Under the pieces are notes generated by a model. That model searched no databases and was not told the origin of the DNA. It saw only the letters and a list, made by a program, of their open reading frames with translations. Shown here piece after piece: positions 28,604 through 34,970 of a stretch of 40,284 bases of DNA (its first letter is position 1; each line of letters starts with the position of its first letter). The position numbers and the translations under genes were made by a program. The DNA is from Desulfuromonadales bacterium (GTDB lineage: Bacteria > Desulfobacterota > Desulfuromonadia > Desulfuromonadales > Syntrophotaleaceae): assembly GCA_013619105.1 (NCBI GenBank), contig JABXKU010000014.1, positions 1-40,284 on the forward strand. Reading direction: 5' to 3'.

Positions 28604-28840
28604 TTGCTAAAGAGCTATTATTGTTTGCCGCGTCGCCAGATCGGTTATCTGCGTTTCATCCTCGAAAGTTACGACGGTGTGGCTTTTGTGACGACTCTGG
28701 ATAATCGACAGGCGCTGGTCGAGGTCGCTTATCCCGCCTCCCGTCGTAAGGATGCGCAGGCCCTATTGGCCGCTTTGGCTGAAGAATGCACCATGACCGC
28801 GGCCGCCGCACCGCTAACTTCCGAAGACTCTCCCCTGTAA
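28604..28840 (+). CDS. DUF4911 family small protein
   Basis: 78 residues from a TTG at 28604, chosen because AGGAGG lies 5 bases upstream; a TTG at 28577 in frame would precede that site. The sequence begins LLKSYYCLPRRQIGYLRFIL with ESYDGVAFVTTLD following, the pattern of DUF4911, a small family common in Geobacter and relatives. The predicted fold is a small alpha/beta domain like ACT-type units, with no membrane segment. Function unknown. Its promoter must lie within the 5' part of the divergent rhomboid gene. A remnant of a PEP synthase gene starts 18 bases after its stop. Confidence 0.75.
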   Translation: MLKSYYCLPRRQIGYLRFILESYDGVAFVTTLDNRQALVEVAYPASRRKDAQALLAALAEECTMTAAAAPLTSEDSPL

Positions 28841-28857
28841 ATCCTTCCATCGCCGAT

Positions 28858-28998
28858 GTTATTGGCCGAGTAAAAAAGGCCGGCCGCAAGAACGGTATCT
28901 GCAGCCAGGCCCCAAGTGACTACTCGGAGTTCGCCGAATTTCTGGTCCAGTGCAGCATCGACAGTCTGTCCCTCACTGCCTACACGGTGCTGGCCACC
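28858..28998 (+). pseudogene. Remnant of the C-terminus of phosphoenolpyruvate synthase
   Basis: About 47 codons in one plus-strand frame read like the extreme C-terminus of PEP synthase/pyruvate phosphate dikinase-type proteins: NGICSQAPSDYSEFAEFL followed by IDSLSLT, against the family pattern GICGQ(G/A)PSD...FA..L...GIDS(I/L)SLNPD. No other part of the roughly 800-residue enzyme is present; upstream is the intact DUF4911 gene. The Gly of GICGQ is Ser and the NPD motif is lost (LTAYT), so it is degraded. It is best read as the leftover of a deletion. Confidence 0.65.
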
Positions 28999-29037
28999 CC
29001 CTCTGCAGGTGCTAGCATTGGAAAAGCGGTTGGAGCC

Positions 29038-30162
29038 TTAGTGCTCGACCAGCGGTAGGGTCTCTTCTTCGTCAGCATTGCGCAGGTAGATGCTGCGACT
29101 GGGAAAGGCGATCTCCATGCCGTGGGCCTCAAGAATGTCCATGATCTGCAGGCAGACGTTCTCGCGGGCGTCGAGGTACTCACCCCAGACCGTGGTTTTC
29201 GTGAAGCAGTAGACCAGGATGTCGAGGGATGAGGCACTAAACTCGGTGAAGTTGACCAGAAAGAAATCCTGGTCGATGGCGGTGTGGGTCCGAAGCATGC
29301 CACGAATCGCCTCCACGGCCCGGCGCATCTGCTCCGGGCTGGTTTCGTAGGTGACGCCGATAGTCAGCTTGATGCGCCGCTTGGGCATGCGGCTAATGTT
29401 ATCCACCGATAGGTTGGCGATGATGTTGTTCGGTACCGTGATCAGGGTCTTGGCAAAGGTGCGGACCTTGGTCGAGCGAAAGCCGATCTCCTCGACGGTA
29501 CCCTCCATGTCGCCGGCCTTGATCCAGTCGCCGATGAGAAAAGGCCGGTCGAGGATGATCATGATCGAACCGAAGATGTTGGACAGGGTGTCTTTGGCTG
29601 CCAGGGCTACCGCCAGACCGCCGATACCGAGGGAGGCAAGCAGGCCGGAGATGGAATAACCGAGATTCTGAATGGTCATGATCACGGCCAGAAAGATGAT
29701 GAAGGCCCGCACGCTCTTGCGGATAAAGGGCAGCAGGTGGTCGTCGAGGGTCGATTCGGTTTTGCTCACCCAGCCGGAGAGAAAGGCTTCGAGGAGCGAC
29801 ACCAGATTGAACAGCGCCCAGGCGATGTCGAAGGTCACCAGGCCCTTGAGCAGACCGTAGGCGCCGCGCCGCAGGTTGACAGGCTCAGTTGGCAGTTGCA
29901 GTATCTGCAAGGCAATGAACAGACCGATGATGATCAGCAGCAATTCCGCCGGTTTTCTAATGCTCTGCAAAAAGAGATCGTCATAGCGGCTTTTGGTGCG
30001 GGTTGCCAGGGGAAAGATCACTTTGACGAACAGGTGGGCAAATACTTTTTTCATTATCAGTGCCGCGATTAGCACCACGAAGGCGCCGGCAAAGCGGCTC
30101 AGGCTAATGCCGAGAAAGGTCTCTTGTAGAATGGTTTCCAGTGTAGCGAAGAATGCGCTCAT
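29038..30162 (-). CDS. MscS family mechanosensitive channel, larger type
   Basis: 374 residues from the ATG at 30160-30162, with GGAGGA about 7-12 bases upstream; an in-frame start 60 bases earlier is less likely. Four or five hydrophobic helices precede the pore-lining TM3 (about 165-200: SGLLASLGIGGLAVALAAKDTLSNIFGSIM), followed by the cytoplasmic domain (FRSTKVRTFAKTLITVPNN) and a C-terminal alpha/beta region. Relative to mscS at 13841-14662 it has two extra N-terminal helices, like YbdG/YnaI-class channels. It should gate on membrane tension. It stands alone, divergent from the aconitase gene. Confidence 0.9.
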   Translation of the reverse strand: MSAFFATLETILQETFLGISLSRFAGAFVVLIAALIMKKVFAHLFVKVIFPLATRTKSRYDDLFLQSIRKPAELLLIIIGLFIALQILQLPTEPVNLRRGAYGLLKGLVTFDIAWALFNLVSLLEAFLSGWVSKTESTLDDHLLPFIRKSVRAFIIFLAVIMTIQNLGYSISGLLASLGIGGLAVALAAKDTLSNIFGSIMIILDRPFLIGDWIKAGDMEGTVEEIGFRSTKVRTFAKTLITVPNNIIANLSVDNISRMPKRRIKLTIGVTYETSPEQMRRAVEAIRGMLRTHTAIDQDFFLVNFTEFSASSLDILVYCFTKTTVWGEYLDARENVCLQIMDILEAHGMEIAFPSRSIYLRNADEEETLPLVEH

Positions 30163-32747: not shown

Positions 32748-34970
32748 TTGAACAAATTACTCAAACTCCGTTACTGTTTGCCCCTCGCCGTAGGGGATGT
32801 CATCTCCAGCCTGCTCTCGCCGTTTACCTGGGGCTATCTGAGTCATAAATCGCAGGCTCCCCTGCGAATTCCTGAAGGTTTTTTCGGTATAAATATCGCT
32901 TCTTCCGAGGACGAGCGTTGCGATGATTATGTATTGGCCCGTCTTCGGGAGCTCGGCATCAATAATGTGCGGATGGGATTTAGCTATTGTAGTTTTGACG
33001 GCCCGGTAACCCGATTTCTTGATAAACTTCTTGATGAGAAATTTGAGGTTTCTTTGGTGGTTCTTCCGCCCTTGGACATGGCCAGAAAGATGCTGGCGGA
33101 CAAAGGAGCGCAGGAACAATGGCGGGCCTTTGTTGCCGAGGTGTTCAGCCGCTATGCCCAGCGGGTTGAGGTTTTCGAGATCGGAAGCACCCCCAACCGT
33201 AAGAAATGGTCCGGCTTTTGCCCCCGCAGCTATCTACAGGCTTGGGACATTGCTTGCGAGGCGGCGAAAGATCATGCCGTCATTTTGGCGGGACCAAATA
33301 TTCAAGACTTTGAGCCCCTCTACAATGCCGTCATTTTGTCTGCCATGGGGCGTATTTCACGGGCTCCCGATATTCATACCAACAACTTGTTTGTCGAACG
33401 GGTTATCGAACCTGAGGCTTATGACCATCGTGTTCTGGGGCGTTGGGCGACTAACCTGCTAAAGCTTAATCTGGTCAAAAAAGCGCGTATCTTGCAGTCT
33501 TTGGGAAAAAAGGCCGGCAGCCAGAAGACTTTTTCGACCTGTAAGTTCTGGTCGACCAAACGGCTGCGCCGTTGGTCACTCTATCCGCAGGATAAGAAGG
33601 TTGACTACCTGGCCCGTTATCTGCTGCTGGCCGCTACCAGCGGTTCCTTGGGCCGGGTCTACTGGGGGCCGATGATCTGTGGGCGCGACGGCTTGATCGA
33701 TGATCTGGCCGAGGATTATCCCACCATCGATCATTCAAGCTTTTACAAACGGGTCCGTGGTGATGTCGAAGACTTTACCGTAACCCCGGCATTTTTTGCC
33801 CTGGGCTATGTCGCCCAGCGCCTTCGCAACGCCTACTGTGACTGGGCCTTCAGTGACGCCAACGGGGTTAGCCTTTTTGCCTTTACCGGCGCCGACAATG
33901 AGGTGTTTCATGTTTGCTGGTGCCGTGACAGCCAAGCCTATAGGCTAGATGAGCTGTACAGTGCGGAGCAACTGGCCGGTGCTATTTTTACCAATGCTTG
34001 CGGCAAAATCGTCGATTCACCTGTGGCGATCAACGAACGGCCGTTGTTTATCGATTTTCCGCGGCTGACCAACCAACAATTACCGGAGCGCCGGTCAATG
34101 TTAAAAAAGTGCAAAACAGATATCCTTTATGTTGCCCTGCCCAAGGTGCAGGCCTTGCCTTGGAAAAACCGCCACTGGCGCGGAGCTTTTACCACCACCG
34201 ACGAATTGCCTTCCCCGACACTGGGCGACCAGTTGGCTCCGGACGAAGTGGTGCAAAAAGCTGAACTGGCGGTGCTGCGGGACCGCCGCAACCGGTTGTG
34301 GAATATCGCCCACCCTCTTGATGGGAGGCGGCAGCTGACGGTCAAGTTCAATCGCCCGCGGGGCAGCAAACGTCTGCTGTATCTCTGCAAGCCGAGCAAG
34401 GGGCTGCGCCACTGGAATACCGCCTCCAAGATGTTGCAGAAGGGCATCAGCACGCCCTTGCCGGTGGCCTTTTATGAGCGTCACCGCAACAGCGGGGTCA
34501 GGGACAGCTACTATATCTGTCAATATATCCCCGGGGCGTTTTCCTCACGCCAGGTGTGCAACGCTTTTCGGCAAGGGCAAACAGAGTACCGGGGGCTCGA
34601 TAAACAGCAGTGGTTTGATCTGCTCACGGGCTTTATTTGCAATATGCACAATGCCGGTATCCTGCATCGGGATCTTTCCGTGGGTAACCTCATACTTACC
34701 CAGGAAGATGACGGTAAAATTACCCCTTACCTGATTGACATCGGCCGAGCCAAATTGATGAAGAAGGCTCTTGTTGGGCGTATGCGTATTTTAGATCTGA
34801 TACGGATCTGCTATAAGCTTGATTGGCCGGATCGAGAGCTGTTAATCCAGTGTTACTGTAAGAATTGGGGCCAGTCATTACCCTCCTATTGGCGGTTGGC
34901 GGTTAAATATTATGACATTAAGCAAGGCAGCAAAAAGTATCTAAAGGGCAAGCTTAAGAAAAAACGCTGA
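32748..34970 (+). CDS. Fusion of a glycosidase-like TIM barrel and a WaaP/Kdo-type kinase domain
   Basis: 740 residues. Residues about 40-440 look like a glycoside hydrolase barrel: FFGINIASSEDER, then alternating strands and helices (LRELGINNVRMGFSY; FEVSLVVLPPL; RVEVFEIGSTPNRKKWSGF; HAVILAGPN). Where such enzymes usually carry the acid/base in WNEPN, this has GSTPN (146-150), so hydrolysis is doubtful. Residues about 490-740 form a kinase of the WaaP/Kdo/InaA family with complete HRDLSVGN (His640, Asp642, Asn647) and IDIGR (Asp664), and a candidate ATP-binding Lys in TVKFN. Such kinases phosphorylate LPS core sugars. No signal peptide is seen. The start is TTG at 32748 with a weak AGG 11 bases upstream. 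The tail is Lys-rich. Confidence 0.75.
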   Translation: MNKLLKLRYCLPLAVGDVISSLLSPFTWGYLSHKSQAPLRIPEGFFGINIASSEDERCDDYVLARLRELGINNVRMGFSYCSFDGPVTRFLDKLLDEKFEVSLVVLPPLDMARKMLADKGAQEQWRAFVAEVFSRYAQRVEVFEIGSTPNRKKWSGFCPRSYLQAWDIACEAAKDHAVILAGPNIQDFEPLYNAVILSAMGRISRAPDIHTNNLFVERVIEPEAYDHRVLGRWATNLLKLNLVKKARILQSLGKKAGSQKTFSTCKFWSTKRLRRWSLYPQDKKVDYLARYLLLAATSGSLGRVYWGPMICGRDGLIDDLAEDYPTIDHSSFYKRVRGDVEDFTVTPAFFALGYVAQRLRNAYCDWAFSDANGVSLFAFTGADNEVFHVCWCRDSQAYRLDELYSAEQLAGAIFTNACGKIVDSPVAINERPLFIDFPRLTNQQLPERRSMLKKCKTDILYVALPKVQALPWKNRHWRGAFTTTDELPSPTLGDQLAPDEVVQKAELAVLRDRRNRLWNIAHPLDGRRQLTVKFNRPRGSKRLLYLCKPSKGLRHWNTASKMLQKGISTPLPVAFYERHRNSGVRDSYYICQYIPGAFSSRQVCNAFRQGQTEYRGLDKQQWFDLLTGFICNMHNAGILHRDLSVGNLILTQEDDGKITPYLIDIGRAKLMKKALVGRMRILDLIRICYKLDWPDRELLIQCYCKNWGQSLPSYWRLAVKYYDIKQGSKKYLKGKLKKKR

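Follow-up and report, generated by a model that had tools for sequence, protein, structure and literature searches.

A two-domain gene and its relatives

The window, by which we mean the whole 40,284-nucleotide stretch analysed here (contig JABXKU010000014.1 of Desulfuromonadales assembly GCA_013619105.1), carries on its forward strand a gene of 740 codons whose product joins an N-terminal half resembling glycoside hydrolase (GH) family 39 to a C-terminal kinase domain of the Kdo/WaaP family. The frame opens with a TTG at 32748 and runs uninterrupted to a stop codon at 34968-34970; the position of the start could be off by a few codons, as no strong ribosome-binding site is apparent and the candidate starts of relatives differ. 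The gene and its parts are as follows, the domain boundaries within the N-terminal half being approximate or predicted.

32748..34970, + strand: two-domain gene, 740 amino acids (aa), TTG start (start codon uncertain), nine full-length relatives
32748..32867, + strand: residues 1-40, fast-evolving and mildly hydrophobic N-terminus (boundary approximate)
32868..33782, + strand: residues ~41-345, GH39-like barrel by profile comparison (predicted boundaries)
33189..33191, + strand: Thr148, at the column of the GH39 acid/base glutamate, Thr in 10/10 members
33546..33548, + strand: Phe267, at the column of the GH39 nucleophile glutamate (Phe 8, Ala 1, Glu 1 of 10; alignment less certain here)
33783..34082, + strand: residues ~346-445, probable beta-sandwich after the barrel, from a low-confidence extension of the alignment (predicted boundary)
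34083..34247, + strand: residues ~446-500, variable linker, 47-86% identical to four relatives
34248..34967, + strand: residues 501-740, Kdo/WaaP-family kinase domain (Pfam match 554-688) and basic C-terminal tail
34344..34346, + strand: Lys533, ATP-binding lysine, 10/10 members
34410..34412, + strand: His555, at the position of the helix-C glutamate (His 8, Ser 2 of 10)
34665..34688, + strand: HRDLSVGN catalytic loop, residues 640-647 (D642 and N647 in 10/10, H640 in 8/10, R641 in 9/10)
34737..34739, + strand: Asp664 of the DFG-type motif (D-I-G here), Asp in 10/10

A preliminary description of this DNA, made by inspection of the letters and their open reading frames, had proposed a two-domain protein on a frame continuous over 740 codons and had quoted four motifs in it, all of which are present (FFGINI at residues 45-50, GSTPNR at 146-151, HRDLSVGN at 640-647 and IDIGR at 663-667). 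The fusion is real: the same two-part frame is found intact and uninterrupted in nine other genomes, which disposes of the possibility that chance or a hidden frameshift has joined two separate genes. Identity of these full-length relatives to the window protein ranges from 32 to 95%, and the ten members as translated are 730-741 aa long. Seven relatives belong to the same order (G001, G002, G003, G008, G010, G088 and G089) and two to another class of the phylum (G459 and G481).

The fusion is sparsely distributed. A profile of the N-terminal half (A2) matched 9/277 genomes of the class, including the window's own genome and one that holds a fragment (G009), and 3/395 genomes drawn from the phylum, one of which is again the window's own; a ten-row profile (A5) matched 2/8 genomes of the class of G481, both previously found. 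In all ten intact cases the N-terminal half is joined to the kinase, and no stand-alone N-terminal half was seen in these searches of the class, the phylum sample and the class of G481. A search of genome contigs returned two close relatives, and none were detected among viral contigs or plasmids. The same-genus genome G004 gave no match to the fusion protein. Two further genomes retain pieces of it: G009 (L040) keeps residues 1-110 and 626-739 only, with a stop inside, and G007 (L041) keeps residues 658-739 only. The survival of the gene only as fragments in these two genomes suggests that it has been lost in their genus.

A Kdo/WaaP-family kinase at the C-terminus

The C-terminal half had been described as a WaaP/Kdo-type kinase, and profile searches agree: PF06293 matches residues 554-688 at 35.5 bits (E 8.8e-9, curated Pfam cut-off 21.3 bits) and is found in all eight members scanned. 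Against solved structures, a profile of the ten members finds the lipopolysaccharide (LPS) heptose kinase RfaP/WaaP best (6dfl, E 2.2e-6), followed by a ribosomal S6 kinase (E 2.9e-5), and the kinase half aligns at a probability of 98.6% with a profile built from three further PF06293-type frames found in the order. The WaaP and Kdo kinase equivalog models of NCBIfam score well below their cut-offs (NF011703, heptose(I) kinase, 39.1 bits against 170; NF002475, 25.9 bits against 142). Given the first of these shortfalls, the kinase half is by its profile scores a member of the Kdo/WaaP family and not WaaP itself.

The preliminary description credited this half with every kinase hallmark, which overstates the case. 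Lys533, Asp642, Asn647 and Asp664 are invariant across the ten members; the helix-C glutamate is absent from all of them, and the His and Arg of the catalytic loop vary. Absence of the helix-C glutamate does not exclude membership of PF06293, since two of five other LPS-type kinases of this family that we compared also lack Glu at this column.

A role in defence was considered and rejected, as the PADLOC matches (PD-T4-6 and others) are weak and restricted to approximately residues 568-675, inside the kinase.

Other multi-domain frames with PF06293 were encountered in the course of the searches. A 516-aa frame on contig C1 of the window's own genome (L056:13240-14787) has two PF06293 stretches in tandem, within a cluster that appears LPS-related by eye, and similar tandem frames are found in the same order (L018 and L024). 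An 845-aa frame in G075 (L016:538-3072, - strand) combines two PF06293 stretches with a GT2 glycosyltransferase domain at residues 554-716.

A GH39-like N-terminal half

Family-level searches did not place the N-terminal half. In Pfam at E <= 10 the eight families listed for eight members are all kinase-type, so that none fits this region and PF01229 is not among them; PF01229 has no match in the window's own genome; NCBIfam offers no family for any of the ten N-terminal halves; and comparison of their profile with solved structures returned nothing credible (best E 0.29, myomesin). GH39 was picked by eye ahead of any test, from the resemblance of EIGSTPNRKKWSG to the GH39 block around NEP. 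GH39-type sequences were then collected independently of the query, via PF01229 matches in the phylum and a tblastn search of one such protein against plasmids, from which ten of the 25 records listed (39 in all) were taken. One sequence (L070) was dropped for matching no other member, and 20 of the 22 proteins collected were aligned into a profile, the two shortest (L100 and L105, 354-357 aa) having been excluded before scoring.

Compared by hhalign with this 20-sequence profile, residues 35-334 of the ten members score 51.0 (probability 86.9%) and residues 35-494 score 55.9 (89.1%), with alignments spanning residues 87-215. For the shorter query, 100 column-shuffled GH39 profiles score at most 22.9, the reversed GH39 profile and the kinase profile 13.3 each, and the highest of the reversed controls (kinases) 25.8. 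Other families of clan GH-A score 18.4 (GH5), 24.1 (GH10) and 38.6 (GH42-like) against the same query, within overall ranges of 18-19, 24-25 and 38.5-38.6, respectively. Masking the catalytic motif block, the most GH39-like part, leaves the register unchanged and lowers the score to 35.3. As a yardstick, pairwise comparison of the GH39, GH5, GH10 and GH42-like profiles under identical settings gives six scores of 39-269; the highest, GH5 against GH42-like at 268.6, is inflated because these two profiles have five sequence places in common (5/14 rows of the GH42-like profile come from the same genome places as GH5 rows), and the remaining five pairs score 39-100. The deep GH39 profile was alone decisive for this assignment: used as single-sequence targets, three GH39-like and 15 GH5 proteins could not be separated from a background of 71 proteins plus 30 shuffled sequences, and the highest of all 119 scores (23.8) belonged to a shuffled sequence.

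Since the GH39 scores exceed their controls and the register survives masking of the motif, assignment of the N-terminal half to clan GH-A, nearest to GH39 among GH39, GH42-like, GH10 and GH5, appears well supported. As far as sequence profiles go, the glycosidase-like barrel of the preliminary description is thus upheld. Similarity to a barrel family is seen and no frameshift lies between the halves, so neither outcome that the description had named as fatal to its reading came about.

Loss of the catalytic glutamates

Both hhalign and a joint MAFFT alignment place E-I-G-S-T-P-N-R-K-K-W-S-G of the window protein on the GH39 block E-x-W-N-E-P-N-...-W-x-G, such that the acid/base column falls on Thr148; this column is Thr in 10/10 members and Glu in none. 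The strand-7 segment S-T-C-K-F-W-S aligns with x-x-T-E-W-S and puts the nucleophile column at Phe267, an assignment beyond the stretch that hhalign aligns with confidence; the column holds Phe in eight members, Ala in G481 and Glu in G459 (L055:8747-10942), the sole member with Glu here, whose acid/base column is still Thr. Cys265 had been considered as the lost nucleophile position and gave way to Phe267 on the evidence of both alignments. Of the two glutamates characteristic of GH39, numbered Glu160 and Glu277 in XynB (PMC6933502) and Glu162 and Glu279 in GsXynB (PMC7242879), the acid/base residue is therefore present in 0/10 members and the nucleophile in 1/10. Hydrolysis by a barrel that has lost this pair seems unlikely.

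Five of the 20 GH39-like sequences in the profile (L101, L102, L068, L069 and L107) also lack the nucleophile Glu, with Ala, Ser or Arg in its place.

Constraint and location

Both halves are under purifying selection. Between the window gene and four relatives, omega (the ratio of nonsynonymous to synonymous change) is 0.07-0.09 for residues 41-320, 0.05-0.15 for residues 321-445 and 0.08-0.15 for kinase residues 501-740, rising to 0.18-0.41 in the linker and 0.30-0.49 in residues 1-40, with synonymous change almost saturated in the most distant comparison. Constrained about as tightly as the kinase, if not more tightly, the barrel is no remnant in decay.

The best 19-residue Kyte-Doolittle mean within residues 1-40 is 1.27, and across the first 48 residues of the ten members the corresponding values are 0.15-1.63. 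The highest, in G010, comes close to the value usually taken to mark a membrane segment; none of the other nine exceeds 1.31. C-terminal tails are basic in all ten, with 7-12 Lys/Arg against one Asp/Glu in the last 25 residues. These features fit a cytoplasmic protein that touches the inner membrane, and phosphorylation of the LPS core occurs at the inner leaflet according to PMC6147952.

Genomic context

In the window the gene is flanked by an aconitase-family gene and a Cache-GGDEF gene, and the setting in G001, G002 and G003 is the same on the flanks covered. A greedy set of frames of at least 90 aa comprises 33 in the window, and among the 20 of these scanned at E <= 1e-10 there are no LPS or polysaccharide genes. 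The earlier remark that no LPS gene lies beside the fusion thus stands for these window frames but does not extend to all relatives. G089 has two PF06293 kinases on the upstream side, pointing the other way (the contig end truncates one of them, whose match is weak at 23.2 bits against a cut-off of 21.3), and downstream are SIS-domain, PfkB-plus-cytidylyltransferase and HAD-type genes that by domain content are GmhA-, HldE- and GmhB-like. In G481 the neighbours are a methyltransferase of phospholipid/isoprenylcysteine type, an unmatched frame, another that carries two PF06293 stretches, and a GT2/GtrA glycosyltransferase. A single PF06293 kinase adjoins the fusion gene in G088, and at G008, G010 and G459, where only sequence heads were inspected by eye, no LPS gene was noticed.

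A short frame of 90 aa in the window (28786-29058, + strand) matches, over 58-59 residues at 74-76% identity, a frame of 755-816 aa at this spot in G003, G007 and G009, and probably represents what is left of a gene that the window's genome no longer has.

Proposed function and alternatives

We propose that the fusion protein phosphorylates a sugar of the lipid A-core at the expense of ATP, with the disarmed barrel holding the oligosaccharide, and give this reading a probability of roughly 0.45. The protein would sit in the cytoplasm at the inner face of the inner membrane. Its WaaP/Kdo-type domain would move the gamma-phosphate of ATP onto a sugar hydroxyl, most likely of the lipid A-core oligosaccharide, while the GH39-type barrel and beta-sandwich, probably no longer hydrolytic, may grip an oligosaccharide in the conserved barrel pocket, and so select or position the acceptor for the kinase. 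A doubtful extension of this proposal is that the pseudo-glycosidase acts as a quality gate, such that phosphate is added only to oligosaccharides of the right length or composition.

Several observations weigh against this proposal. LPS-type neighbours occur at 2/10 loci, or 3/10 with the lone PF06293 kinase of G088, two of the contigs being shorter than 5 kb. On contig C1 of the window's own genome a 5.3-kb interval contains three more PF06293 matches, two of them in the 516-aa tandem frame, and other frames near these resemble lipid A and core genes by eye. Whatever the fusion does is dispensable, given that the N-terminal half is matched in so few genomes of the class and one of these matches is a broken remnant. 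On the kinase side, the helix-C position is His in eight members and Ser in two, and within the catalytic loop His640 is replaced by Phe in 2/10 and Arg641 by Leu in 1/10. On the barrel side, the GH42-like scores make GH39 the best of four families and not the sole match, and structure prediction was poor. AlphaFold was given three near-identical rows (the window protein with L032 and L033, which are 93-97% identical to it) and reached a mean predicted local distance difference test (pLDDT) of 35.6 and predicted template modelling score (pTM) of 0.33 for residues 35-494, and a pLDDT of 43.7 and pTM of 0.45 for residues 39-326. At low confidence, the predicted secondary structure alternates between strand and helix in its first part, and Foldseek found no matches at E <= 0.001 with the model of residues 39-326; the entries it ranked highest (from a nuclear pore, KaiC, a signal recognition particle GTPase and others) were dismissed as meaningless. 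The barrel fold is suggested by sequence profiles, then, and not by the structure model.

Among the alternatives, the one that survives best, which we nonetheless consider unlikely, is that the acceptor is something other than LPS core, be it a free sugar, a protein, or a precursor of exopolysaccharide or of another lipid-linked glycan. It would account for the seven loci of ten with neither a PF06293 nor an LPS-type neighbour (G008, G010 and G459 among them on the visual judgement above), for the presence of other PF06293 kinases in the same genome, and for a WaaP equivalog score so far below the cut-off; it sits less easily with WaaP as the nearest solved relative by sequence, or with a neighbourhood of heptose-biosynthesis type in G089.

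It is also rather improbable that the barrel remains catalytic via non-canonical residues, trimming or transferring a sugar on a lipid-linked glycan whose product the kinase would then phosphorylate. Residues 41-320 are strongly conserved and include, away from the two catalytic columns, invariant acidic residues (E144, D187, E189, E217, E221 and D226), and G459 has its Glu at the nucleophile column. Moreover, a missing Glu is no proof of inactivity and here again counts against our proposal, because CmGH1, a GH39 protein, is an active beta-glucosidase with Gln157 and Tyr264 and neither canonical Glu, as reported in PMC6933502; one sequence of our GH39 set, L106, comes from the species and strain of CmGH1 (Croceicoccus marinus E4A9), carries Q157 and Y264 in the two catalytic columns and matches that description. 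Against a catalytic barrel stand the uniform Thr at the acid/base column and the missing nucleophile Glu in 9/10 members, as well as the absence of any invariant acidic residue from residues 247-281 in the ten members.

That the kinase half is itself a pseudokinase, and the protein a scaffold or sensor built of two pseudoenzymes, is very unlikely: the helix-C Glu is indeed lacking throughout, and a study of Pseudomonas aeruginosa WaaP (PMC6147952) enters E78A at 128 in its table of fold-shifts in the minimum inhibitory concentration (MIC) of EDTA, but E78A has a value there where K51A, D163A and D188N are listed as no growth, the fusion keeps its Lys, catalytic Asp, Asn and DFG-type Asp without exception, and the same Glu is wanting in the two other LPS-type kinases mentioned above.

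Our proposal, if true in its extended form, would mean that a glycosidase fold was emptied of its catalytic residues and repurposed as the substrate-reading arm of a glycan kinase. Phosphates on the LPS core help the outer membrane to cohere, and to our knowledge little is understood of how LPS kinases choose their sugar; a kinase covalently joined to a glycosidase-derived barrel would give a direct and separable handle on acceptor recognition, and would contribute a clear example of a GH39-type fold that is conserved although its catalytic pair is gone. Literature searches, judged by titles and displayed abstracts, with some result lists covered in full and others in part and with most subscription journals absent, turned up no description of such a fusion, and a term search of PMC1821047 found 'glycos', 'domain fusion' and 'fused' to be absent.

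Comparison with known systems

The fusion adds a new domain architecture to a kinase family already known and does not amount to a system of a new kind. With WaaP/RfaP (6dfl) the fusion shares the PF06293 family, the ATP-binding lysine, the HRD Asp and the DFG-type Asp. The solved WaaP chain, at 259 residues, is too short for a second domain of the size of our N-terminal half. WaaP has His168 where kinases have Asn and retains Glu78 (PMC6147952), whereas the fusion has Asn647 and carries His or Ser at the Glu position. The tandem frames L056, L018 and L024 and the longer L016 are likewise multi-domain proteins of this kinase family, but their partners are a second kinase stretch or GT2 rather than a GH-type barrel.

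The likeness to GH39 (XynB, PslG) lies in the aligned NEP-type block, in a profile score of 51-56 and probably in overall layout, as PslG-type proteins similarly have a beta-sandwich behind the barrel (PMC6933502), where ours is predicted at residues ~346-445. The fusion differs from GH39 in its acid/base Thr (10/10), in retaining the nucleophile Glu in a single member, in going unseen by PF01229 and in the fused kinase. CmGH1 of Croceicoccus marinus also lacks the canonical Glu pair, but the CmGH1-like L106 has no kinase fusion and CmGH1 itself is reported to be an active beta-glucosidase (PMC6933502).

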